Shown here piece by piece: positions 8,429 through 53,337 of a stretch of DNA of 64,000 nt. The notes under the pieces are model-generated. The model had not been told where the DNA came from. It did no database searches and was given only the letters and a program-made list of their open reading frames with translations. The translations under genes and the position numbers were made by a program. The DNA comes from a virus: positions 1-64,000 of the IMG/VR virus record IMGVR_UViG_3300046517_001147; one strand, 5' to 3'. Numbering within the stretch: position 1 is the stretch's first letter; the number at the start of each line of letters is the position of its first letter.

Positions 8429-8842
8429 TCACAAATCCTTTGGAGCGGGTAACATCCGTTCGGGGTTTCCGTTAATAGCTGTGTCCAATTTAGGCAGGAT
8501 GTGTTGCGCGACGGTCTTTCCATCCTTGGTCACGATGTAGGGCAGGATTAGCTCGCGAAACTCCATAACGCCAGAGTTGGACGCTTCGAAAATATCTTTC
8601 ATGTGATGGAATAGCACGCGCCAAATGCGACGTGTTTCTGCTTCTGGGTCACGGCTCTTTTGCTTGATGAACGCAGAGATGCGAATGGTGTAGGTCTGGC
8701 CGTCTATCGGCATCATGGCCTGAAAACCTTCCATCGGTGGTTGGGAGATGAACGCAATCCCAGTGCCCTTGTTTTTCATAATCATCTGGCGAATCTTGTC
8801 CTGGGACTTAGGGACGGCTACAACTGTATTTTCATACGCCAT
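8429..8842 (-). CDS. Conserved phage-type hypothetical protein
   Basis: 137 aa, soluble. The N-terminal part (residues 8-55: SQDKIRQMIMKNKGTGIAFI, then QPPMEGFQAMMPIDGQTY) looks like a compact alpha/beta domain. I associate this style of sequence with small conserved phage early proteins but cannot name a function. The start is preceded by GGTAAGGG and overlaps the end of the upstream gene by 11 bases, so the pair is probably translationally coupled. Confidence 0.6.
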   Translation of the reverse strand: MAYENTVVAVPKSQDKIRQMIMKNKGTGIAFISQPPMEGFQAMMPIDGQTYTIRISAFIKQKSRDPEAETRRIWRVLFHHMKDIFEASNSGVMEFRELILPYIVTKDGKTVAQHILPKLDTAINGNPERMLPAPKDL

Positions 8843-9053: not shown

Positions 9054-9277
9054 TTTTTGTTGCTGCGAAACTCGTTGGCCTTCGGACAAACACTCCAATG
9101 CGCTTCTAGCTTCTGCGATTCGTCGTCTTCGGTTCCTGGGATAGCGGACATTGGCAGCTTCTTCCCGCGTGGTGTGGTGAACCATTGCATTTCGGCGCCG
9201 CATCCGCGACAAGCAGAGGAGCCAGTGTACTTGTAGCCTAGGCTCTCCAGGCCGTCGCGAGTGTCTGGAAAAGGCAT
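9050..9277 (-). CDS. Small zinc-finger-like protein
   Basis: 75 aa. A Cys pair, CRGC (residues 22-25), followed by a WFTTPRGKKLPM segment and a later HWSVCP, gives a C-x2-C / H-x3-C pattern that probably binds one zinc ion. Such mini zinc ribbons are frequent in phage early regions and may contact DNA or host polymerase; nothing more specific can be said. Start and stop overlap the neighbouring genes by 1-4 bases. Confidence 0.6.
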   Translation of the reverse strand: MPFPDTRDGLESLGYKYTGSSACRGCGAEMQWFTTPRGKKLPMSAIPGTEDDESQKLEAHWSVCPKANEFRSNKK

Positions 9278-9648
9278 TATTCTTTTTCTTTCTTGATGCG
9301 GACCTTCACAGTTTCTTTTTCGTGGACCATTTTTACTTCCACGCCATCGTGATTGTAGGATTCTTTTTTGTGTTTCTTCATTAGGGAGAGAAGTACATCT
9401 TTGGTTTCAACTTCTGAACTGGTCAGCTTCATCCGATCATCGCGGATGTTGGCATACTCTCTAGCCGCGTCCTCTAGCTCCTCGATCTCCGGGTCTTCCA
9501 TGCCGGGAAGTCTGCTGGTCTTGCCGCGCTTCTTGTTTGCTTCGGAGAGCAGTTCCGGCTTGTGATCGTCCTCTTTCGGTCCGATTCCTTTGCGTCCGGT
9601 TTGCTTTGGCTTGTGCTTCGGGAGATAGTCCTCTACTTTTTTTGCCAA
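9277..9648 (-). CDS. Charged coiled-coil-like hypothetical protein
   Basis: 123 aa from a TTG start, chosen because GGAGG lies 7 bases upstream while the longer upstream frame has no such site. Lys/Glu-rich throughout. Residues about 50-95 (DPEIEELEDAAREYANIRDD and following) form a heptad-like helix, and the end is a strand-rich, basic segment (VKMVHEKETVKVRIKKEKE). It resembles small conserved proteins found beside phage replication and recombination genes, but I cannot assign a reaction. Confidence 0.55.
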   Translation of the reverse strand: MAKKVEDYLPKHKPKQTGRKGIGPKEDDHKPELLSEANKKRGKTSRLPGMEDPEIEELEDAAREYANIRDDRMKLTSSEVETKDVLLSLMKKHKKESYNHDGVEVKMVHEKETVKVRIKKEKE

Positions 9649-9712
9649 TGAGATTCCTCCTAGGTGGAACGGGAGACCGCAAGTTAGCGTACTGAAGTGT
9701 CGGAGGTCAAGG

Positions 9713-16462: not shown

Positions 16463-16687
16463 TCAAGTCATCCAAAGAACTGCGGCAACTACGGCTAGGG
16501 TGATTACGACCTTCACGGCGAACCAGGCAAGCGCTTTAACAAGTTTCACGTTGGCGGCGCGGTCCTGCTTGCGTTCGCGAGCGTAGAATGCTCGCATGGC
16601 GTCTGCTTCGCGTTCGTCTTCAATGTCCAATGCCTTGATGCAGACTTCTACATCCTTACGGCTCGGTATGTTGAGACTGGGTTTCAC
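16463..16687 (-). CDS. Small tail-anchored membrane protein
   Basis: 74 aa from a GTG start with GGAGGAAAACAAC upstream; an upstream extension lies inside the PEP-CTERM gene and was rejected. Residues 1-48 are charged and helical. Residues 50-73 (ALAWFAVKVVITLAVVAAVLW) form one membrane helix at the C terminus, so the protein would face the cytosol. The start overlaps the stop of the PEP-CTERM gene, so the two membrane-related proteins are coupled. Function unknown. Confidence 0.6.
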   Translation of the reverse strand: MKPSLNIPSRKDVEVCIKALDIEDEREADAMRAFYARERKQDRAANVKLVKALAWFAVKVVITLAVVAAVLWMT

Positions 16688-17127
16688 GTTGTTTTCCTCC
16701 AAAGGATTGCGAACACTAAACCAGCAAACAGAAAAGCGATTGTGGAAGGTTCTGGGGTGGTAATTGGAACGTCGCCAAAGTCGATTGAGGTCGGGCTGAT
16801 CGAGACCGTCACATTGGGATTTATGGCTATGCGGGATTGCGTCCACACAACGGGCTCCGCTTTCTCGTCGGTTATTTCAGTTGGTCCACCTGGCCAAACG
16901 TAAAGCCCGATGGCTTTGAGTACTGCATTGATTGAAAGTTGTAGGGAGTCGGCGTTCGCGGCTATCTGCGCGTTTAGCAGGTTTCCCGCGAGGTCCAGGT
17001 CAACGCCTGGGGCGAGCGGTAACACGGTACTCGCGTCCAGTTCTGCGGCAACCTGCGTGATTGTGTCTGCGTGTGCTGTGGCCGCACAAAAGAAAGCTGC
17101 GGCGATTGCTAGGTTACGTAGTTGCAT
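16684..17127 (-). CDS. Exported protein with PEP-CTERM sorting signal
   Basis: 147 aa from the ATG at 17125-17127 (GAGGAGAAAAAC upstream). It starts with a clear signal peptide (MQLRNLAIAAAFFCAATAHA, cleavage after AHA). The C terminus has the three PEP-CTERM parts in order: TPEPST, a hydrophobic helix (about residues 127-141) and a basic WRK end. Between them is an Ala/Leu-rich helical part and a short segment ISPTSIDFGDVP like the first strand of the ASH repeats in the tail spike. In bacteria this signal is processed by exosortase. A phage copy suggests a host with that system, or a captured host gene. Confidence 0.8.
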   Translation of the reverse strand: MQLRNLAIAAAFFCAATAHADTITQVAAELDASTVLPLAPGVDLDLAGNLLNAQIAANADSLQLSINAVLKAIGLYVWPGGPTEITDEKAEPVVWTQSRIAINPNVTVSISPTSIDFGDVPITTPEPSTIAFLFAGLVFAILWRKTT

Positions 17128-17413
17128 TTTTGTTTTTCTCCTCATAGGCTCGGCGTAGTAAAAGCTGTAGCGGGTCGGTCTCCGCTGCGTGATCTCCGCA
17201 TCCGCATGGCAGCGCTACCAGGCCGTCGGCGTTGGTTCCCGAAACCCAAACGTCCTTCTCGTAGTCGCATCCGTATTTCGGGTCATGAAAGCTGATCGGG
17301 TGTCCGCATCCTTCGCAGTTGACCGGCTCCGGTGTACGGGTTTTCAAGTTTAGGTATTCGGTCGGGTCTTGCTTGCGTTCCAGTGCTAGTTCTACTGCTC
17401 GGTCGTAGCTCAT
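17114..17413 (-). CDS. Small zinc-ribbon-like protein, first gene of a leftward operon
   Basis: 99 aa with GAGGAGGAAAT upstream. CEGCGHPISFHDPKYGC (residues 33-49) plus a later LPCGCGDH supply enough Cys and His for one or two zinc sites. It is the first gene after the operator-bearing promoter at 17434-17461, so it is likely among the earliest leftward products. The 3' end overlaps the PEP-CTERM gene by 14 bases. Function unknown. Confidence 0.6.
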   Translation of the reverse strand: MSYDRAVELALERKQDPTEYLNLKTRTPEPVNCEGCGHPISFHDPKYGCDYEKDVWVSGTNADGLVALPCGCGDHAAETDPLQLLLRRAYEEKNKNATT

Positions 17414-17433: not shown

Positions 17434-17461
17434 ATGGTACGCTGATTTGCGGACAAGTCAA
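17434..17461 (-). promoter_or_regulatory. Leftward early promoter (PL1)
   Basis: On the minus strand: -35 TTGACT (17456-17461), 16-bp spacer, -10 TACCAT (17434-17439). The spacer holds one copy of the dyad operator starting directly after the -35. It drives the operon from 17413 leftward. Confidence 0.6.
17436..17455. promoter_or_regulatory. Dyad operator copy 1
   Basis: Minus strand TGTCCGCAAATCAGCGTACC, an imperfect TGTCCGC-N6-GCGNACA dyad. It matches copies at 17479-17498 and 22361-22380 and lies inside the leftward promoter. Confidence 0.65.
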
Positions 17462-17473
17462 GTTAAATCTTGC

Positions 17474-17502
17474 TTGCGTGTCCGCTTATTTGCGTGTATA
17501 AA
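17474..17502 (+). promoter_or_regulatory. Rightward promoter of the HTH regulator gene
   Basis: -35 TTGCGT (17474-17479), exactly 17-bp spacer, -10 TATAAA (17497-17502). The predicted start of transcription falls at about 17509-17511, at the ATG, so the mRNA would be leaderless. Operator copy 2 covers the spacer. Confidence 0.65.
17479..17498. promoter_or_regulatory. Dyad operator copy 2
   Basis: Plus strand TGTCCGCTTATTTGCGTGTA. It shares TGTCCGC and GCGT at the same spacing with the other two copies and occupies the spacer of the regulator's own promoter, which suggests autoregulation. Confidence 0.6.
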
Positions 17503-17510
17503 AGTCTCCT

Positions 17511-17723
17511 ATGACTGATCTGCAAGTGCTGGCCCGACTAACTAAGTACTCTAAGCGCTACAAGAACATTCGCGAGGCTGCGGCATCTCTCAACATCTCT
17601 AAAACGTACATGGGTGATATTCTGCGCGGTCGTCGGCCGGTTCCGGATTCAGTCTTGGCCGCTATCGGTTTGGAGCGTGTTACCGGATACCGGCGCGTTG
17701 TCGCCTACAAGTCTGCGGATTGA
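17511..17723 (+). CDS. Small HTH regulator (repressor/Cro-like)
   Basis: 70 aa. Residues 18-45 (NIREAAASLNISKTYMGDILRGRRPVPD) form a lambda/XRE-type helix-turn-helix: helix 2 REAAASLN, turn, recognition helix KTYMGDILRG. No dimerisation or cleavage domain is visible, so it resembles Cro or a minimal repressor. It is transcribed divergently from the 17413 operon, and its last 75 bases overlap the end of a convergent gene. There is no Shine-Dalgarno; the promoter suggests a leaderless mRNA. Operators in both flanking promoters and at 22361 make it the likely master early regulator. Confidence 0.8.
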   Translation: MTDLQVLARLTKYSKRYKNIREAAASLNISKTYMGDILRGRRPVPDSVLAAIGLERVTGYRRVVAYKSAD

Positions 17724-18125
17724 ATTGTTTGATGAGTACGTGCGCGCTTCCAGCGTAGCAATGTGGAACACACGGCCGGGCTGCTCTCCCTGATCGGCGT
17801 ATGGCGCGGTCAATGATTCAATCTTCCAGTAGTTTTTAGTCCGGCCTAGAATGCGGCCGGTAAATTCATGCTGGCGGCCGGAGTTGGTGAACCTGGCAAT
17901 TACTAGGTCACCCGTTTGGTAGTGGTCCAAGGTCGGATGCATCTCTTTGCGTACTTCACCCGCGAGCGTTCCTCTGCTTATCATTGGCTTTTCCTCTCGT
18001 CTAAATTCTCCGAATAGTGTTTCCCCTAGGCGTTTCATTGCTGCTTGGCGTGCGCGTTTGGACATATGACCGGAGGGCGACGATAGAGCTATCGCGTCTC
18101 CGGTCGAGAATGGTTTGCGGGTCAT
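17649..18125 (-). CDS. Hypothetical basic protein, possible SH3-like domain
   Basis: 158 aa. Basic N terminus; residues 63-105 (LDHYQTGDLVIARFTNSGRQHEFTGRILGRTKNYWKI) look like a small beta-barrel of SH3 or KOW type. The final 25 codons run antisense to the 3' end of the HTH gene. The start overlaps the upstream stop. Possibly nucleic-acid binding; uncertain. Confidence 0.5.
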   Translation of the reverse strand: MTRKPFSTGDAIALSSPSGHMSKRARQAAMKRLGETLFGEFRREEKPMISRGTLAGEVRKEMHPTLDHYQTGDLVIARFTNSGRQHEFTGRILGRTKNYWKIESLTAPYADQGEQPGRVFHIATLEARTYSSNNSIRRLVGDNAPVSGNTLQTDSGQD

Positions 18126-18358
18126 GCGAGTGCTTTCTTGATGCGTTCTGGCGTGTCAATTGCGGTTCCCACGTGTCCCATGTTGTTAAAGTTTTGCGCC
18201 AGTTTTCTGGCAAATTCTTCACACATCGGGCCGTGATGCCGGATGATATTGCGATCCGTATCTACGTGAGAAACGTACCAGGTCGTACCAGTCTGCACAT
18301 CTCGCGCTACAAGTGCGCGCGAAGCTGAAGGCATAATGCTATTTTCAAAGTGTGACAT
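18122..18358 (-). CDS. Small hypothetical protein
   Basis: 78 aa starting MSHFENSIMPS at 18358, two bases after the upstream stop; longer frames overlap the neighbour. TTWYVSHVDTDRNIIRHHGPMCEEFARKLAQNFNN gives a beta-hairpin followed by a helix. No function recognised. Confidence 0.5.
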   Translation of the reverse strand: MSHFENSIMPSASRALVARDVQTGTTWYVSHVDTDRNIIRHHGPMCEEFARKLAQNFNNMGHVGTAIDTPERIKKALA

Positions 18359-18359
18359 T

Positions 18360-18644
18360 TTAGGCTCGCATCCGTTCTCTAATCTCTGGTTTGGCGTACC
18401 ATTCGCGGCATATCGCGGCATAGGTTTGGCAGCATACGCAGTACTGCTCCTCTGGCAATTTGAGTTCTACGCAGTCCGTGCCCACTTCGGCCGCGTCACA
18501 AGTGTCGGGTATATCGACCGGCCATCGCGTTTCGAAAAACTCCGCGAATATCTGGGTGCGGTGAGCGCGGAGTTGCGCGATCGTTTCCGCTGCGGTCAAG
18601 TTGTTGCTTGTGGTCACTTCTGGTTCTATGGGCTGGTGCGTCAT
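18360..18644 (-). CDS. Small hypothetical protein with Cys pair
   Basis: 94 aa, acidic and helical. A short CVCC element (residues 68-71) with C85 or nearby Cys could bind a metal. It is embedded in the leftward operon between two hypothetical genes. Function unknown. Confidence 0.45.
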   Translation of the reverse strand: MTHQPIEPEVTTSNNLTAAETIAQLRAHRTQIFAEFFETRWPVDIPDTCDAAEVGTDCVELKLPEEQYCVCCQTYAAICREWYAKPEIRERMRA

Positions 18645-18650
18645 TGGGCG

Positions 18651-18929
18651 TTAATCCTTCCTCCTGCAATCTTCGAGATATTGGGCGTGATTGTAGTCGA
18701 GTGCGCTTGACAAGTCTTCGGCTTCTGGGTCGTCGTGGTCGTCTAACCTGTGGCCGTGGTCCTGAATGTTGGTCAGTTCGGTCCATAGGTGCGTCTGTAC
18801 GTGGTTTGTAAACGCTTCGGCTATTTCGCTTGGGGTTGCGTCGGGTAACAGTTTGCGGAGCGCTGACTGTGCGAGTGTTAGCGCGTCGTCAAGTATTGCG
18901 AGCGTGCGGTCATCATCGCGGAGTGTCAT
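18651..18929 (-). CDS. Small acidic hypothetical protein
   Basis: 92 aa, strongly acidic with many His and Asp in the second half (HGHRLDDHDDPEAEDLSSALD). The N-terminal half is amphipathic helix. Acidic phage early proteins can mimic DNA (anti-restriction, anti-CRISPR), but nothing here proves that. No family recognised. Confidence 0.45.
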   Translation of the reverse strand: MTLRDDDRTLAILDDALTLAQSALRKLLPDATPSEIAEAFTNHVQTHLWTELTNIQDHGHRLDDHDDPEAEDLSSALDYNHAQYLEDCRRKD

Positions 18930-18930
18930 G

Positions 18931-19356
18931 TTATACCTTCCCTTCTGCGGCCGCGATTGCGGCGCGTGCCATCGCGTGTGCTTGACTGATTATGGCTTCT
19001 GAGTTTTCGGCGTGGCCAGTTACCAAACGGCGGCAAGCTGCTAGCAGGTCCGGCGCTGCGGCGATAAGGCGCGCGTTGGCTTCATAAAAACCGCATACTA
19101 GTGCTAGGTTTTTACCGTCTGCGTCTGCGTAAACTGCAAAGTCATGTTTACCTGCGAGTGCTTGATAATTCCACGGTCCTGGCGTGTGTTTCGGTTCTGT
19201 ATTTTGAATATGCAAGGCGTGTTCACTCTCTACGTGTTCGCGCCTGGCGCATCCGGTGTAACTCAAATTCCACCCGCCACAACTGCAAGTGGCATGCGCG
19301 TCTGATAGTGAATGAATCTTTAATTTGTGGGTTGCGTTGTTCATGGCGTTTTCCAT
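18931..19356 (-). CDS. Conserved phage hypothetical with NARLIAAAPDLLAA motif
   Basis: 141 aa (a second ATG four codons later may be the true start, as neither has a strong ribosome site). The N-terminal part has a Cys/His pattern, TCSCGGWNLSYTGCARREH, likely a zinc finger. The C-terminal part, HTPGPWNY and NARLIAAAPDLLAACRRLV, is a module seen in many phage early proteins of unknown role. The combination is a two-domain protein. Confidence 0.6.
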   Translation of the reverse strand: MENAMNNATHKLKIHSLSDAHATCSCGGWNLSYTGCARREHVESEHALHIQNTEPKHTPGPWNYQALAGKHDFAVYADADGKNLALVCGFYEANARLIAAAPDLLAACRRLVTGHAENSEAIISQAHAMARAAIAAAEGKV

Positions 19357-19392
19357 TTCGAAGGAAGGGGAGAGAAAAACTCTCCCCAGTCC

Positions 19393-20472
19393 TTAGAATG
19401 TGGCCTCCATTAACTTACCCGCTGCGCGGTCCAGTTCGGTGCGGCCGTCGGCGTACTTGATCGTCTGAGAAAAGCGCGTGAGCCCTTGAACCATTCCCCA
19501 AACGGTGTTGCGTGGTCCGTCCTGGGCAACGTTGACGGCATCATAACCCGCGTCTATGGCTTTGCGGGTCAGTCCTGGGATGCGCTTCCCAAAGAGTGCG
19601 TCAAGTACTTGCTCTTTGTTGGCGCCAATGATGCGCGTTTTGGAAGCTGCGATCTGTGCTTCCAGGTCGGAAGTGGATTCCTCAGCGTACCGGCGGACGG
19701 CCGCAAAGTAATGTGACCACTTGCTGCGAGCGTTTCCAACGTGGCGGACGGAAATTTCCACCACTTTAGAGGCTCCCCAAATGATGTGGTTCCCGCACAT
19801 TTCGCGGTACAGGAAGCGGGTTAACTTGAGTGCTGAGGCTCCAACTTCGGAGTTTTGCACGATGACACCCTTGTAAACGGCGCCATCTGATCCGCGTTCG
19901 GTAACGGTCAAGTCTGAATTGCGAAGGAAGGCGAACATATCATGGTCGCTGGCATACAGGGCGGGAAAGTCGTCCTCTTTGCAGCGAATATCAGGCATAG
20001 CCGGTGCCCATCCTTGCTGCTCCAATCCCAAGAGCCGTTCGGCTACCTCATAATTCCAGATGCGGGAATAGTCGTCGGTCACAATCGAGCGGAGCAGCAA
20101 TCCGCCGTTCTCGTGGAACATCAAATTGGCCACGGCGTTGGCGGCGCCATTCTGCAAGCGTGCGGCCAGTCCGTAGTTAAGGTTCTGGCAAGCGAGGGTA
20201 GCGGGGAGTTCGCGCAAGTAGGATGCCGGTGCTTCGAGTCGGGCGCAAAGCTGGCCAAACGCCCAATGCGTGAGCTTCGCGGGTACTCCGGCCTTGCCTA
20301 CCAGTTGCACATCACCGTCCACATTCTCAACGCGCAAGTCTGCGAAGGGCATACGCTTTTCTTTGGCAATGTCTGCGTAGTGCTTGGTTGCGTCGTACAG
20401 CGATTGCAGACTGGAAAACCGTTCGTCTGCTGGTCGTGTGCTCCATTGTTTATTTGCTGCAAAGAGTTCCAT
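19393..20472 (-). CDS. DUF932 / phage-plasmid-like protein
   Basis: 359 aa with AAAGGATAAAGCAA upstream. HWAFGQLCARLEAPASYLRELP (residues 69-90), ILLRSIVTDDYSRIWNYEVAERLL-like text (residues 128-150) and GNHIIWGASKVVEISVRHVG (residues 233-252) match the DUF932 family common in phages and plasmids. Its reaction is unknown; a link to recombination or replication has been suggested from context. It is one of the largest early genes here and has its own upstream intergenic space with two hairpins. Confidence 0.8.
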   Translation of the reverse strand: MELFAANKQWSTRPADERFSSLQSLYDATKHYADIAKEKRMPFADLRVENVDGDVQLVGKAGVPAKLTHWAFGQLCARLEAPASYLRELPATLACQNLNYGLAARLQNGAANAVANLMFHENGGLLLRSIVTDDYSRIWNYEVAERLLGLEQQGWAPAMPDIRCKEDDFPALYASDHDMFAFLRNSDLTVTERGSDGAVYKGVIVQNSEVGASALKLTRFLYREMCGNHIIWGASKVVEISVRHVGNARSKWSHYFAAVRRYAEESTSDLEAQIAASKTRIIGANKEQVLDALFGKRIPGLTRKAIDAGYDAVNVAQDGPRNTVWGMVQGLTRFSQTIKYADGRTELDRAAGKLMEATF

Positions 20473-20520
20473 TTGCTTTATCCTTTTGCCCTACCGTGCC
20501 TTGGCTGGCCACTGTGGGCG

Positions 20521-20561
20521 GACCGTGTTAGGCGGTCAGAGCGGGGCACGTTGCGGTGCCC
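20521..20561. repeat. Two short hairpins upstream of the DUF932 gene
   Basis: GACCG/CGGTC (20521-20525, 20533-20537) and GGGCAC/GTGCCC (20544-20549, 20556-20561) lie in the 101-bp gap 5' of the DUF932 gene (transcribed leftward). No T run follows. They may be part of its mRNA leader or a weak attenuator. Confidence 0.45.
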
Positions 20562-20573
20562 TACTCAAACGGT

Positions 20574-20894
20574 CTAACTCTTTTTCCCTTCCCAGTCCGC
20601 GAGTAACCTATAGTGTGCGGCAACTGTGCGAAGGTGGTTAGAGTCGGTGATGATTACTTCGGTGTATCCATTTCCGGCCGGTGAGTATGCTTCGATGATC
20701 TGCCCTGACTGAAAGTCTAGGCGTGACACTTTTCCTTCGGGGGTCTCCATATCGTAGCCGTAGGATCGGTGGGCTTTGACTGTACGGGGCTTTGGTGCGG
20801 TCATTGGAACATAGCAGCCGATTAGTTCCAATTTCCGCCCAACGTAGAAAAGCGTTTTCAGTTCCTTGCGTGAGATTACTTGCGTTGAGCCCAT
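20574..20894 (-). CDS. Hypothetical small protein
   Basis: 106 aa starting MGSTQVISRKELK with GGAAGGAGTTAACAAC upstream; a longer frame was not used. Beta-rich (ELIGCYVPMT, VSRLDFQSGQIIEAYS, YTEVIITD), with a C-terminal helix. Perhaps a small barrel. Function unknown. Confidence 0.55.
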   Translation of the reverse strand: MGSTQVISRKELKTLFYVGRKLELIGCYVPMTAPKPRTVKAHRSYGYDMETPEGKVSRLDFQSGQIIEAYSPAGNGYTEVIITDSNHLRTVAAHYRLLADWEGKKS

Positions 20895-20898
20895 GTTG

Positions 20899-21027
20899 TT
20901 AACTCCTTCCCAATCGCGAAGCGATAACGCGAACAAACGAAACAAAGATAACGAGTATCACCAATGCCGGAGCGTTGGCGTCTAGCATGCTGCTAATTGC
21001 TTGGGCGGCGGTCTGTAGGGTGTCCAT
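20899..21027 (-). CDS. 42-aa single-pass membrane protein
   Basis: Read directly: ATG at 21025-21027 with AAGGAAGG upstream; stop TAA at 20899-20901. The polar N-terminal half (MDTLQTAAQAISSMLDANAP) is followed by a hydrophobic helix (ALVILVIFVSFV) and a basic tail (RVIASRLGRS). Short membrane proteins recur in this early region; the role is unknown. Confidence 0.6.
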   Translation of the reverse strand: MDTLQTAAQAISSMLDANAPALVILVIFVSFVRVIASRLGRS

Positions 21028-21029
21028 GG

Positions 21030-21338
21030 TTATGCCTTCCTTTCCAGGTCAACGCGAGTAATGCCGGCGTCGAACGGTTCGGCGTTGGTGTATTGGCGGA
21101 TGTGCTCATTGCGGGGTTCTTCGCGCCAGGTTAGATACTCCTGATACTTGCGGAGTTCATAACCGTAAATGGCATGCAGGTCTAGCACGGTGGCGCTGCT
21201 GCTGATCTGTCCATCGTCTGATACGCTTACGCGCTTTCCGCCTACGCAATAATCGTTAGAGTTAAAAGCGCGCGAAATGAAGCGGACAACATTAGGACTA
21301 CAAACGTGTCCGTGATAACCACATTGTTGGCGGTCCAT
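21030..21338 (-). CDS. Hypothetical protein
   Basis: 102 aa starting MDRQQCGYHGHVCS at 21338, overlapping the previous stop (TAATG). An N-terminal CGYHGHVC could bind zinc. The middle is beta-rich with DYCVGGKRVSVSDDGQISS, then a helix, YGYELRKYQEYLTWREEP. No family recognised. Confidence 0.5.
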   Translation of the reverse strand: MDRQQCGYHGHVCSPNVVRFISRAFNSNDYCVGGKRVSVSDDGQISSSATVLDLHAIYGYELRKYQEYLTWREEPRNEHIRQYTNAEPFDAGITRVDLERKA

Positions 21339-21547
21339 TAGAGGGTCACCGTCACGGCATAGCCTTCGCGCTTCCAATACTCAAAAGCGTTTACGGTACG
21401 GTAGCAACGCGCTTTGTAAGTGGGATTAACACACAAGCCGTCAATCCAGTTGTACGCGCTCTGCTGGTCGGGGAAAGTTCCGCAAACAACTCCGGTCTCG
21501 GCGTGAATGACTAGGGTTTGGGTTGAGGGAATGGCGGTGGGCAGCAT
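21338..21547 (-). CDS. Small hypothetical protein
   Basis: 69 aa. TLVIHAETGVVCGTFPDQQSAYNWIDGL looks like an alpha/beta unit with a helix after a hairpin, and the end is KREGYAVTVTL. The start overlaps the stop of the ArdC-like gene. Function unknown. Confidence 0.5.
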   Translation of the reverse strand: MLPTAIPSTQTLVIHAETGVVCGTFPDQQSAYNWIDGLCVNPTYKARCYRTVNAFEYWKREGYAVTVTL

Positions 21548-22305
21548 TAGAACACCACGTCCTGCTTGGCAGTCTTCGGGAATCCAGGGCGGGAAAACGG
21601 CCGGTCAAATGACGGAACGTGGCGCGGTGTCTGCTGTAAGCGGCGGGGGAGTTTCTCCGGTTCGCGCTTAAACTCGTCAATCATGTCCATAATGTTGACG
21701 GTCTCTCCACGCATGGCGCGGTCGTAGGCGGAGTCTTTCGGCGGTTCGGGAGTCTCGCGTACCAGTTCGCAATTCTCGTCAAGCGTGAAAGTCTCAATCG
21801 TGGCTTCGGGGGAAAACTTCTCAATCTGCCGGTTAACATGCACGGCGGTTGAGTGGTCCAGCAATTCGGCTTCGTCGGTGTCTTCTTCACCGGCATACGG
21901 GATATTCTCCGGCGTGGCGTCGGGCTCATTGCCGTACAGAATGCCGTTGTAGCAGGGCATAGCAGGTTGAGCGGGAGTATAAGGTACGGTAACGCGGTCC
22001 GTGCCTACGAGCTCCGTCTGCGATACGTGGAATACCGTAACAGTCCATGGGCGGCGCTCTTCGCGGCCATTCTTGCCAGTCTTGGTGATAAAGGTGAGAC
22101 ACTTCACGCCATGTTCGCCCTTGCGGACCTGGCGGCCGTTCGCTTTCCATGCGTTGTACGAGAACACATTAACGCGGGGAATGATCTGATCTTCCGGGAT
22201 TCCCTTCGCCATAAAGCCCCGAATGATCGGCGCATAATTGCTAAAGGATTGACCGGAAACTGCGCGGGTAAGTGCTTCTTGCTGGATTGCTGCTGAAGTG
22301 GCCAT
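21547..22305 (-). CDS. ArdC-like antirestriction protein, N-terminal type
   Basis: 252 aa starting MATSAAIQQEALTR with AAGGAGCTTTACAG upstream. Residues 25-90 (SNYAPIIRGFMAKGI, VNVFSYNAWKANGRQVRKGEHGVKCLTFI) match the ssDNA-binding N-terminal domain of ArdC (DUF1738). The C-terminal metalloprotease part of full ArdC is absent; instead there is an acidic linker and a basic tail. First gene of the PL2 operon, where an antirestriction factor would be needed soon after entry. Loss of the protease half makes the activity uncertain. Confidence 0.7.
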   Translation of the reverse strand: MATSAAIQQEALTRAVSGQSFSNYAPIIRGFMAKGIPEDQIIPRVNVFSYNAWKANGRQVRKGEHGVKCLTFITKTGKNGREERRPWTVTVFHVSQTELVGTDRVTVPYTPAQPAMPCYNGILYGNEPDATPENIPYAGEEDTDEAELLDHSTAVHVNRQIEKFSPEATIETFTLDENCELVRETPEPPKDSAYDRAMRGETVNIMDMIDEFKREPEKLPRRLQQTPRHVPSFDRPFSRPGFPKTAKQDVVF

Positions 22306-22358
22306 CTGTAAAGCTCCTTGCCAACTGAGCCCTTTCGTCGGGCATCCGTGGCAAAACA

Positions 22359-22387
22359 AATGTACGCTAAACTGCGGACAACGTCAA
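22359..22387 (-). promoter_or_regulatory. Leftward early promoter (PL2)
   Basis: On the minus strand: -35 TTGACG (22382-22387), 17-bp spacer, -10 TACATT (22359-22364). It drives the ArdC-like gene and the following leftward genes. It carries operator copy 3 in the spacer. Confidence 0.65.
22361..22380. promoter_or_regulatory. Dyad operator copy 3 (most symmetrical)
   Basis: Minus strand TGTCCGCAGTTTAGCGTACA: six of seven positions in the arms TGTCCGC / GCGTACA are complementary. Same TGTCCGC directly after the -35 as at 17436 and 17479. Confidence 0.65.
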
Positions 22388-22435
22388 GCAAATTCGTATG
22401 AGTAAACGAAAATAATTTAAGTTTGTGAGTACTGG

Positions 22436-22444
22436 TGCTAAGCT
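22436..22444 (+). promoter_or_regulatory. Weak extended -10 candidate for the small-terminase gene
   Basis: TGcTAAGCT lies six bases before the ATG at 22451. No convincing -35 and no Shine-Dalgarno. If used, the mRNA would be leaderless. Low certainty. Confidence 0.35.
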
Positions 22445-48165: not shown

Positions 48166-51100
48166 CCGACGCTCCTGACACTCTTCCATCTGACTTTTTC
48201 GATAAGAAGAAACCGGCTGCTGGCGAAGCTCCGGACACTTTGCCCGGTAACTTTTTCGATGAAGCGCAAGAAGAGCCATCGGAAAAAGAATTACCCAGTT
48301 CGACTCCGCGCTTGCGTAAAGCGGTAGCGGCTGGCAAAGCTCCCGCGTCCACGCCAACTGAATTTGAAAAAGGACATACGCCTTCTCCAGACGATACTGG
48401 GCTGTGGAATCGCGTCACGCAGGGCGCAAAAGATGTTGGTAAATTGTTGTATGGAATGGGTGCCGGCGCTCTTGAGCCTACCCTTGGGCCGGTAGGTGGA
48501 ACACCTGGAAAGATTGCGGACCTTGCGACCTCCTATGCTTCGCGGCGCATACCGAATATCGGACAAGAGGGTAACGCTGGCGGCCGGTCTCCGGCCTACA
48601 GCGCTCTCGCGACTGGCGCGCAAGCTGCCGGTATCGACCCAACTGGAATGGAAGCATCTGCGGAGCATGGCGACCCGATGGGCGTTGCTACTCATGCTGC
48701 CGCTCAAGCTACTCCTGTAGGAGTAGCTGAACTGGCGCGGCACGTCAAGATTCCTGACATTGGCGTGAAGAGTGGCTTGGCTGACCGATTCGCTACTCCT
48801 GCGATTGCTCCCGGCCTTAGCGAGCCGGCAACTGCAAATCTTGGCGAACCGATTGCCCGTCGTGGCGTGGAGAAAACTCTGCGCGCTACCGGGATGCCGT
48901 CTGGGAATGTTGGATTGCGTGAATCGTTTTCGATCGCGGCGCCAGACCTGGCAGAAATTGAGCGCAAGCAGCCTCTAGGAGAATCTGGAACAAAAGGCGG
49001 CGTCATCCGTCCGGATATGAGACTTCGGCAGACGGTTGAGAATATCGATAACCGCCTGGATGACATTTGGAAGAAAGAACGGCAACCGCAAATCGATCGT
49101 AACGCTGAATTGCCGGCAATCTCCCGCGAGCAGTTGCTTGGAGATGCCACAATCGATCAACTAAAGAGAATTGAAAAGACGTTCAAGATGGATATTCCCG
49201 ATCAGATCAATCTTGGCGAAGCGGACAAGATGCTGGTCAAAGTGAATGCCCGTCTGCGGCGTGCCGAAGGCATGACCCCGGAAGCAAGAGCGCTCGCCCT
49301 GGAACTAAGTCCAGACCTGCAGAAATTTAACGAGATGAAGGGCGAACTTCACAAGAGTATCGGTGACTTGCTTGAACGTGTGAATGAACCAGGTATTAAA
49401 GAGTTTAACCGTCGGTATGGCGCTCTATCCGAAGTGCGGGACGCCCTACGTACCAGGATGAATCCGGTAGAAGCAGAAAGAGTACTGGACGCGGTGCGCG
49501 CTACTGGCGGATTGGGGCGCAACGTCAACCTATTCGAACGCTTGCACCTAAAAGCATCTCCTGGCCGTTTGGCTCAAAAAGGGTTGGAAGACTTGGCGCA
49601 ATCGAATCTGCGGATTAATCCTCCTGCACAGCGGCCGCCGGTTGCTGGATTGCTTCCACCGATTCCTGAACCTTTGCCCGGTCCTGTGCCTGAAAGTGGT
49701 TCGGTTCGCGGTGGACGGTGGACAACTCCGGCCGGATTGATTCCGCCGATAGCTCCGATTGAGGGTGAGTACATTCCTCCTCCGGAGACTACGGGCGCTG
49801 ATATTCCCTACGCGCACCAACCGACTCCGCCGACGGTTCCTCCAGAGTTTCGCGTACAAGCTCCGCGCATGCGTTCTGGAACGATTCCGCCGATCGAGCC
49901 GGTTACTAGTACCACGAACCTTCCCGGCGGTGGTGTCCGCAACGCTCCATTGCTGCCTGGTCCTGCGTCGATCGCTGCGACTGCTCCTCCTCCGGTTGCT
50001 AGTAAATTCCGAATTGAGCCGATCGTGCCAGCAACTCCGCCGGTCACTCGCGGAGAAATTGTCGGACGTGGCCAGCTATTCAAAGGGCCGGCACAGATTC
50101 CCCAGATTCCGCCTCTCATGCTGCCGGAAAAGGCAACTGGATTTGCGGCGAACAAGTTGCCGTTCAAGGCGCCTCTTGAGCCTACTGCACCGACAAAGCC
50201 GATCATGGAAGGCGCTCCACCGATCGAGAGACCGACTGGCCAGCTACCTCTAAAGCCCGAAGCTGAACGTGCGGCTGCCATGAAGGAAATTAAACCGCCT
50301 TCGGCTAAAGGAAAAATCAAGCCGGTAGCGGAGCGCTTGAGCACCGAAGAGATTGCCGAAGCGGAAGGACTGCTGGCTTCCGAAGCCGGCGCAATGGCTA
50401 CTGGAGACCGTCCAGGGGCTTACTTCGATGAGTCTGAACAAGGCGATGTGCGTCTAGGCTCTCGCGGCGCGCAGACTAGGGGCGGAGATTGGCGCGGGGT
50501 AAAGAGTGGCCGAAGAATGTATCCGTTCATGCGGGAGAATCCCGACGTTAACCCGCAAGCGGTCCTGAAAGCCCTGCGGAATAAGGACTCTGCTGCTTAC
50601 AACAAGCTAATCACTCGCGCCGATAACTTCATCAAAGGAAACTACGAAAAACCTCCAGGGATGGGCGCTATGGACTTCCTGAAAGCGCTTGAGAATCCAG
50701 ACGCGGAGCCGGAGACGATCGAACCTGGCGCGGATGTATTCGCTCCGCCAGAACAAGAAGCTGCTCCGGAGCCGACTCCTGGTAGGATTCCTCAAATCGG
50801 CAAAGGACAGACGGGCGTCATTCCCGGCATGGAAGAGGACGTAGCAAGGCAGAACGAAGGTGCTGCTAAGGTTGCCGGCGAGAAACTGACTGCCGAAGCT
50901 AACCGGCCAAAGGATATTTCCGCGGCCGCTGGCGAGATGGAAACCAAGTCTCCGCTATTCCGCGGGACGGAAGCTAGTCCGCAACGGGAGATATTCGGCA
51001 ATGCTCCGCCGGCCGCCAATGAGCCTCCAGCGACGATCGCGCCAGTCCTGAAAGAAACCGGATGGGGCTATGAAGGCAAGAACAACCTAGGCCAGTACAC

Positions 51101-51456: not shown

Positions 51457-51485
51457 TTGCAATAGAACGCAGATTTGCGTATAAC
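51457..51485 (+). promoter_or_regulatory. Promoter of the glycan cluster
   Basis: -35 TTGCAA (51457-51462), 17-bp spacer, -10 TATAAC (51480-51485). The ATG at 51493 lies seven bases after the -10, so the mRNA is probably leaderless. Confidence 0.6.
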
Positions 51486-51492
51486 TTCCTGA

Positions 51493-53337
51493 ATGCGAAT
51501 CGGGTTAGTTACCAACTTCAAAGGGCGAGGACTGGAATGCGATGCTCGCCTAATCACTCCGCTGATTGAATCTGCAGGGCATACCGTTGAACGGCTGCAG
51601 TACGACGAAAAGCACCACGGCAATTTTGACCTGCTCATATTCCTAGAAGTGGTTCCGCGGCATCTGGTACGTCTTTCCGACACTCCACCGTGGGTTATCG
51701 TCAATCCTGAATTTCTGGTTCCGGAATACATTTCCACCATTCGCCGGTCATTTGGACGGGTGTTCTCTAAAACTCACGAAGCGCAACGCATCTCGAAAGG
51801 ACTGTTTGGAGATAAGGCGGAATATATCGGATTCCTCTCCGAAGACCGCTTCGATGAATCGATTGAAAGGCAAATGACGTTCCTGCACGTCGCGGGACAT
51901 AGCAAAGCCAAAGGAACGGACGCGATTATTGATGCTTGGCGCTGGACGCGGAACGGTGAACGGCTAAAAGCCAAGTTGACGGTGATAACCGATTTCCCGC
52001 CAGAGGATGTTCCCGAAGGCGTCACGATCTTGGAGAATGTGACCGATGCGGAACTGAAACGGCTGCAGAACGAGTGTCAGTTCCATTTGCAGCCTTCGCA
52101 GACCGAAGGATGGTCGCACGTCATTCACGAAGCAATGTCGGTGAACGCGACGATCTTGACCGTGGACGCTCCGCCGATGAATGAGATTAAATCGGCTTAC
52201 CGGATTCCTTCCTGTGGTTCAACGCTATTCAATCTGGTGCGGATGTACGAAGTTTCGGCGCTGGATATATACACCGCGGTATCGACTATGGCGAAATTTA
52301 AGCGCCAAGGATATTCGCAAGCCGGGGCTCCGCGCAGTGAATTTCTGGATGCCGTGAACGCATTCAAGGAAGCATTCACAGCGCAGTTGGCGACAGCCGG
52401 CCAAAGCGCGGCGGTTAGGAACGAGAAAGCAAGCCGGACGATCGCCTTTATTGGCAACTTCGAAGCGGAACACTCGACAGAAAATCAAATCCTGTGGGCT
52501 TTGGAGCAAAGGCTAGGCTATGAAGTCGATAAGCTGCAGGAAAACCGTATCAGCGCAGAGGACATAGAGGATGCTGCTTTAGGAGCGCGCGCACTTCTTT
52601 GGGTTCGCACTCCCGGCTGGCTGCAGATAACCAACGAACGAATGTTCGAAGTTCTGGAATACCTGAAACGGCGCAAGGTGGTGACCGCTTCGATTCACCT
52701 GGACAAGTTCTGGGACATACCGGAGCGGGAAGCGCTGATCGGTAAAATTCCCTTCTGGAAGACAGATTACGTATTCACGGCGGATGGATCGCGGCAAGAC
52801 GATTTCAAAGCGCGGGGAGTGAACCACATCTGGATGCGGCCAGCGGTTTCCGAAGTCTATTGCCATCCTGGGACGCCAAGAGAGGAGTACCGCTGCGATG
52901 TTGGATTTGTCGGAGCCAAAGGCGGCTATCACTCTGAATATCCTTTCCGGCAAAAGATGGTTGAGTTCCTAGAAGAGACTTATGGAAGCAGGTTCAAGCA
53001 TATTCAAGGCGTTCGCGGCCACTTACTCAACGACGTTTACGCTTCGATGAAAGTGGTGGTCGGAGATTGCTTCGGCGCGGGGATTCCGTACTACTGGAGC
53101 GATCGGTTGCCGGAAACTTGCGGTCGTCATGGTTTCCTGTTGCATCCAGAGGTCGAGGGGCTGGATATTCCTACAGCAGAGTATAGGTCTCAAGATATTT
53201 CACATTTGCAAATCATGGTTGATTACTGGCTGCGCGAAGATTCTGGTCGCTTGGATGTTCTGGTTGATTGCGCTGAACGGGTGAAGCTATCGCATACCTG
53301 GACAATCCGCATGGCAGAGATTATGGAGCAACTGTGA
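51493..53337 (+). CDS. Two-domain glycosyltransferase
   Basis: 614 aa. Residues 1-290 are a GT-B/GT4-type domain: MRIGLVTNFKGRG at the N terminus and ECQFHLQPSQTEGWSHVIHEAMSVNATILTVDAPPMNE with the E-x7-E-like donor site. Residues 315-614 are a second GT-B-type domain (AFIGNFEAEH, then DVGFVGAKGGYHSEYPFRQKMVEFL and GIPYYWSDRLPETCGRHGFLLHPEVEG, resembling CgeB/Glyco_trans_1_2 proteins). Two transferases fused in one chain suggest sequential sugar additions. It opens the glycan cluster behind its own promoter. Confidence 0.8.
   Translation: MRIGLVTNFKGRGLECDARLITPLIESAGHTVERLQYDEKHHGNFDLLIFLEVVPRHLVRLSDTPPWVIVNPEFLVPEYISTIRRSFGRVFSKTHEAQRISKGLFGDKAEYIGFLSEDRFDESIERQMTFLHVAGHSKAKGTDAIIDAWRWTRNGERLKAKLTVITDFPPEDVPEGVTILENVTDAELKRLQNECQFHLQPSQTEGWSHVIHEAMSVNATILTVDAPPMNEIKSAYRIPSCGSTLFNLVRMYEVSALDIYTAVSTMAKFKRQGYSQAGAPRSEFLDAVNAFKEAFTAQLATAGQSAAVRNEKASRTIAFIGNFEAEHSTENQILWALEQRLGYEVDKLQENRISAEDIEDAALGARALLWVRTPGWLQITNERMFEVLEYLKRRKVVTASIHLDKFWDIPEREALIGKIPFWKTDYVFTADGSRQDDFKARGVNHIWMRPAVSEVYCHPGTPREEYRCDVGFVGAKGGYHSEYPFRQKMVEFLEETYGSRFKHIQGVRGHLLNDVYASMKVVVGDCFGAGIPYYWSDRLPETCGRHGFLLHPEVEGLDIPTAEYRSQDISHLQIMVDYWLREDSGRLDVLVDCAERVKLSHTWTIRMAEIMEQL

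Follow-up and report, generated by a model that had tools for sequence, protein, structure and literature searches.

The c repressor of phage phiC31 has conserved inverted repeats at early promoters as its operators, and dimers of the 434 type recognize half-sites with the geometry of CGC-N6-GCG; our literature search on phiC31-type operators returned no relevant paper. In Cluster A mycobacteriophages (L5, Bxb1), one repressor serves conserved sites that are spread over the genome and kept among relatives; these stoperators are asymmetric and numerous, many lie within transcribed regions, and the phages carry an integrase or parABS (PMC6550527, PMC9283540). Here, we report the analysis of 64,000 nucleotides of DNA from an uncultured bacterial virus (the window; positions 1–64,000 of IMG/VR virus record IMGVR_UViG_3300046517_001147, 68,462 bases in full), in which a dyad of the form TGTnCGC-N6-GCGnACA lies over five promoters. 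The reading we lean towards is that a 70-amino-acid (aa) helix-turn-helix (HTH) protein of the phage is an autoregulated repressor of all five, most likely forming a Cro-like early-gene brake in a non-integrating phage.

For comparison, we collected relatives by means of the terminase large subunit (66–99% identity to the window phage), giving five full-length genomes, namely the window phage (G000) and G001 to G004, to which the partial record G005 was added. The relatives are largely collinear with the window phage in gene order. The window record and G002 carry a 127-base terminal repeat at their ends, compatible with complete circular maps, and the length of this repeat is probably that of a common assembler word size. 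The closest terminase from a cultured phage is only about 25% identical and, judged by sequence, the lineage is without close cultured relatives.

Exactly three matches to TGTNCGCN6GCGT occur in the entire 68,462-base record, and a sequence-only reading of the window had located all three correctly by coordinate and strand. Operator A (17436–17455, minus strand; TGTCCGCAAATCAGCGTACC), kept in G001 and G002, fills the spacer of a leftward promoter, TTGACT (17461–17456)-16-TACCAT (17439–17434), which precedes the gene at 17114–17413. Operator B (17479–17498, plus strand; TGTCCGCTTATTTGCGTGTA) fills the spacer of the HTH gene promoter, TTGCGT (17474–17479)-17-TATAAA (17497–17502). Operator C (22361–22380, minus strand; TGTCCGCAGTTTAGCGTACA), described in that reading as nearly palindromic, is a perfect TGTnCGC-N6-GCGnACA dyad over the promoter of the ArdC-like operon, TTGACG (22387–22382)-17-TACATT (22364–22359). 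A and C mark the sole TTGAC promoters with a good −10 box in the non-coding DNA of the genome. Each element had been said to begin right after a −35 box and to fill the spacer; the first part holds for A, whereas B overlaps the final −35 base and C starts one base later, and all three reach into the −10 box, hence covering its first bases as well as the spacer. Two further shared bases had been claimed for the N6 and the flank; inside the N6 we find one, an invariant T at the fourth position.

In the window, the pattern of the sequence-only reading is matched perfectly at three sites and with one mismatch at none. At up to three mismatches, it occurs 79 times against 68 ± 8 in shuffled sequences, which is chance level, and we gave these loose counts no weight. 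Since the loose pattern is no commoner than in shuffles, only exact, promoter-linked sites count here. The refuting outcome named for the earlier proposal, a motif as frequent at random sites as at promoters, is not what the exact sites or those scoring 18 bits or higher show.

The operator list was also incomplete, as two further sites belong to the same set. A scan for CGC-N6-GCG inside promoter-like hexamer pairs found operator D (51464–51483, plus strand; AGAACGCAGATTTGCGTATA), which fills the spacer of TTGCAA (51457–51462)-17-TATAAC (51480–51485), the promoter of a glycosyltransferase cassette. Operator F (9674–9693, minus strand; AGTACGCTAACTTGCGGTCT) covers the −10 box of TTGACC (9710–9705)-18-TAACTT (9686–9681), the promoter of a third leftward operon. 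Both sites are kept in all four full-length relatives. With a wider, symmetric matrix built from 13 sites (the training set contained F of G003 but not F of the window), a genome-wide scan of the kind the sequence-only reading had proposed gives exactly five places of at least 18 bits in the window phage: A, B and C, to which it adds D (23.7 bits) and F (18.1 bits), all of them promoter-linked. The next score is 15.5 bits and all others are below 11; in random 68-kb sequences of the same composition the best score averages 13.7, and 18 is reached once in 3% of cases. We rejected the 15.5-bit site, at 8668, as an operator: it lies within coding sequence and is missing from the close relative G001.

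A second matrix was built from A, B and C alone to test D and F independently, and 150 random genomes, with a highest score of 17.3, served as its comparison. It scores D at 17.6 in the window, at 17.6–18.2 in four of the five full-length genomes and at 15.7 in G002, and F at 19.8 in G002, above the random maximum, and at 12.7 in the window, within the chance range. For the window copy of D and the G002 copy of F, support is thus independent of the wider matrix, while the window copy of F, a putative operator, depends on that matrix together with promoter position and orthology. All five sites lie wholly in non-coding DNA, which makes up 5.5% of the genome under the gene set that we chose. Over A, B, C and D, the hexamer pairs of the TTGnnn/TAnnn promoters score 8–9 of 12, as do 2% of the other non-coding positions. 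Outside the lineage, 828 kb of fetched phage loci contain one site of at least 18 bits, in L042, and other phages that share the DUF932 gene are without an HTH protein of the 70-aa type and, apart from one match, without the operator. A scan of viral contigs for TTGAC-N1-2-TGTNCGCW-N4-WGCGTA returned the known lineage and five more contigs, in apparently unrelated contexts.

Judging from position and content, the genes behind A, C and F are probably early genes. The leftward operon behind A begins with a gene for a 99-aa protein (17114–17413, minus strand), an open reading frame kept in G002 and G003, followed by one for a PEP-CTERM-motif protein (16684–17145, minus strand; TIGR02595 above cut-off), the G002 counterpart of which also terminates in PEPSTLAFLFVGLLAILRRR. 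Such a sorting motif is unusual in a phage and hints at an exosortase in the host; the window holds no tRNA as a host clue. First behind C is a gene for an ArdC-N-domain-like, anti-restriction-like protein (21547–22305, minus strand; PF08401, 9e-5, barely above cut-off). Nearby, at about 22415–22440 and upstream of the small terminase gene, stands a conserved element, TTGTGAGTACTGGTGCTA, which also occurs in G002 and in similar form in L016, and which may be a late promoter of the extended −10 type. Behind F, the third leftward operon opens with a gene at 9277–9648 (minus strand; TTG start after AGGAGGAA) that has an orthologue in G002 and G003. In G003, the gene at 65546–65908 (minus strand; in L085) adjoins F and encodes a DnaA domain IV-like HTH protein (PF08299, 3e-7, barely under cut-off), of which we saw no equivalent in the window. 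Rightward from D runs a sugar-modification cassette that starts with a glycosyltransferase (51493–53337, plus strand; PF13692; PHROG 28745, 6e-39) and extends to about 58290 with an epimerase, a methyltransferase and a further glycosyltransferase.

The promoters also differ in what follows them. A Shine–Dalgarno-like sequence precedes the start codon behind A, C and F. The ATG of the HTH gene lies 8 nt past the −10 of promoter B, and that of the glycosyltransferase gene 7 nt past the −10 of promoter D. G003 has a further site, E, before a helicase-methyltransferase gene, and there too the start codon comes 7–8 nt after the −10; because of this short distance, the mRNAs from B, from D and from E of G003 are predicted to be leaderless. 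The gene behind E (48416–50656, plus strand) joins SNF2/helicase domains to an N6/N4 DNA methyltransferase domain.

Alignments of orthologous promoters show the dyads at A/B, D and F as conserved islands inside diverged flanks. In G000, G001, G002 and one partial record, A and B are both kept alongside the HTH gene; they flank the gene wherever it is present, and both are missing where it is missing. In each of the three full-length genomes, site B lies between the two hexamers of the HTH gene promoter. At the C position, the site is kept in G001, L016 has two dyads and L014 has one, which sits in TTGACA-17-TATTCT. G002 has an HNH gene in this region, and its ArdC-like promoter is without an operator. 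G003 and G004 are without A, B and C and retain D and F. The search of relatives that the sequence-only reading had called for therefore finds copies at orthologous promoters in collinear genomes, with C replaced in G002. The related contig L014 has another dyad, of 19.1 bits, at 9265–9284, between a portal-like gene and the next gene.

The candidate repressor (17511–17723, plus strand) has weak profile matches. It matches Pfam HTH_31 at 1e-4 and 23 bits, under the curated cut-off of 27, and the transcriptional repressor family PHROG 1468 at 3e-4; its 12.1-bit match to HTH_3 is weak and is the only match of that type in the window phage genome. The G002 homologue reaches 23 bits against HTH_3, at the cut-off, and the fused relatives described below exceed it. 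Helices are predicted at residues 3–13, 20–26, 31–38 and 46–51 with low confidence (pLDDT 63), and a fold search with this model gave nothing significant; searches of solved structures, by sequence and by fold, yielded nothing of use. Relative to the window protein, identity is 94% in G001 and 64–68% in G002. Close relatives are absent from the phage collection (best E value 0.01), and a pattern search of bacterial genomes found none. There is one clear lambda-type HTH protein per full-length genome: the 70-aa form in three of the five and, in G003 and G004, a fusion of HNH and HTH domains that adjoins the small terminase gene. As a distant relative, the HTH part of the fusion is matched by the 70-aa family profile at about 1e-10. 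A profile search of the five genomes gave one weak additional HTH_3 match, in G002. Given how this family is distributed over the five genomes, and that A and B sit at the HTH gene, we regard the 70-aa protein as the prime candidate binder of the dyads.

These data are consistent with the following mechanism. The dyad would serve as operator for the lambda-type HTH protein that the phage itself encodes. Early in infection, host polymerase would read the leftward operons behind C, A and F, as well as the glycosyltransferase cassette behind D, and the leaderless mRNA predicted for B would yield the HTH protein. A dimer on A, B, C or D would cover the −35/−10 spacer and run into the −10, and one on F would cover the −10 itself; bound in this way, it would sterically keep RNA polymerase off the promoter, which is the simplest mechanism to suppose for a dyad over the spacer or the −10. 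As the protein accumulates, it would close all these promoters, its own included. We infer binding, dimer formation, repression and timing alike. Since B is in the operator set, the protein should limit its own synthesis, and because a single regulator under negative feedback meets no opposing repressor, we expect a brake or timer and no two-state switch. At its 3′ end, the HTH gene overlaps, tail to tail, the final gene of the leftward operon from C (17649–17723), as it does in G002, and no terminator-like site was seen in this overlap; transcription from C may therefore oppose HTH expression, and of all features, this convergent arrangement alone could add bistability.

The sequence-only reading had assigned to the HTH protein both leftward operons and its own gene. 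The dyads do lie on these promoters and are conserved with the HTH gene, which favours such control, with binding as its conjectural part; the set is larger, however, with five promoters that include that of the glycosyltransferase cassette, which runs rightward, and that of a third leftward operon. Its compact switch is not supported, since the sole regulator seen is predicted to act against its own promoter and we saw no repressor to oppose it.

Another factor, such as a host regulator or the HNH-HTH fusion of G003 and G004, might instead read the operators, with the 70-aa HTH gene as a co-regulated neighbour. D and F in G003 and G004, and E in G003, persist without the 70-aa protein, and the motif stands at the C position in L014 and L016, contigs that end before the HTH position. 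We nevertheless think this unlikely, given that A and B stand together at the HTH gene promoter region wherever the gene occurs and nowhere else, that each full-length genome has one clear family member, and that, in the fetched loci, motif copies of at least 18 bits occur only in the lineage, bar the single match. It is quite doubtful that this is a strictly lytic lineage with one 70-aa global early brake, in which the sister branch exchanged the regulator for the HNH-nuclease-HTH fusion and kept operators D, E and F; if true, a homing-type nuclease would have been recruited as a transcription regulator in that branch.

The same protein and operators could also serve immunity in an extrachromosomal temperate phage, silencing all the early promoters in the lysogen, in the manner of temperate systems with several operators. 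Such a phage would require an operator on every leftward early promoter found, together with self-regulation, as seen here, and the leaderless HTH mRNA recalls the cI mRNA of lambda PRM, which is leaderless. Set against this, a profile search of the five full-length genomes, in which positive controls matched, found no tyrosine integrase (PF00589), resolvase-type or serine recombinase (PF00239), ParB (PF02195) or ParA (PF13614), extending the earlier remark that no integrase was visible. No prophage-borne terminase relative was confirmed among 85,000 bacterial and archaeal genomes scanned with two short peptide patterns, which can miss relatives, and 70 aa leave no space for a separate oligomerization or cleavage domain. 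We hold immunity to be rather improbable. Activation of the MerR type, in which a dyad within the −35/−10 spacer remodels a poor promoter, would suit the position of the dyads and the weak −35 boxes at B and D. We reject it on spacer length, 16–18 bp here against the long spacers of 19–20 bp at MerR promoters; the −35 boxes at A and C are good, the F dyad lies on the −10, and the protein matches HTH_31/HTH_3 and not MerR, which together make activation highly improbable. That the promoters are merely copies by descent, a duplicated cassette with no dedicated binder, is scarcely credible: CTTGACGTTGTCCGC is common to A in G002 and C in the window, but likeness between sites is largely restricted to the symmetric positions and the register of F relative to its promoter differs.

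A Cro-like brake would give a regulatory map to a phage lineage without a close cultured relative and a named, testable unit of one small protein and five DNA sites, small enough for the protein and promoters to be tested in Escherichia coli without the natural host. It also points to multi-operator repressor circuits as possible in phages without recognizable lysogeny genes. With Cro of lambda and 434, the system shares a small lambda-type HTH protein, an operator over early promoters and its own, and, as in 434, an N6 between half-sites; in contrast to their clustered triple operators, the sites here are mostly single copies at scattered promoters, five in number and including that of a sugar-modification cassette, and we found no gene for an opposing CI. 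Like the stoperator systems of Cluster A phages, it combines dispersed conserved sites with one repressor, here a candidate, but its sites are symmetric dyads, five in all and each within a promoter, in genomes where we found neither integrase nor parABS. With phiC31, it has in common inverted-repeat operators at several early promoters, although phiC31 has another repressor and is an integrating temperate phage. The system is a regulon of a known kind, resembling Cro and multi-operator repressors, in a lineage that lacks close cultured relatives.
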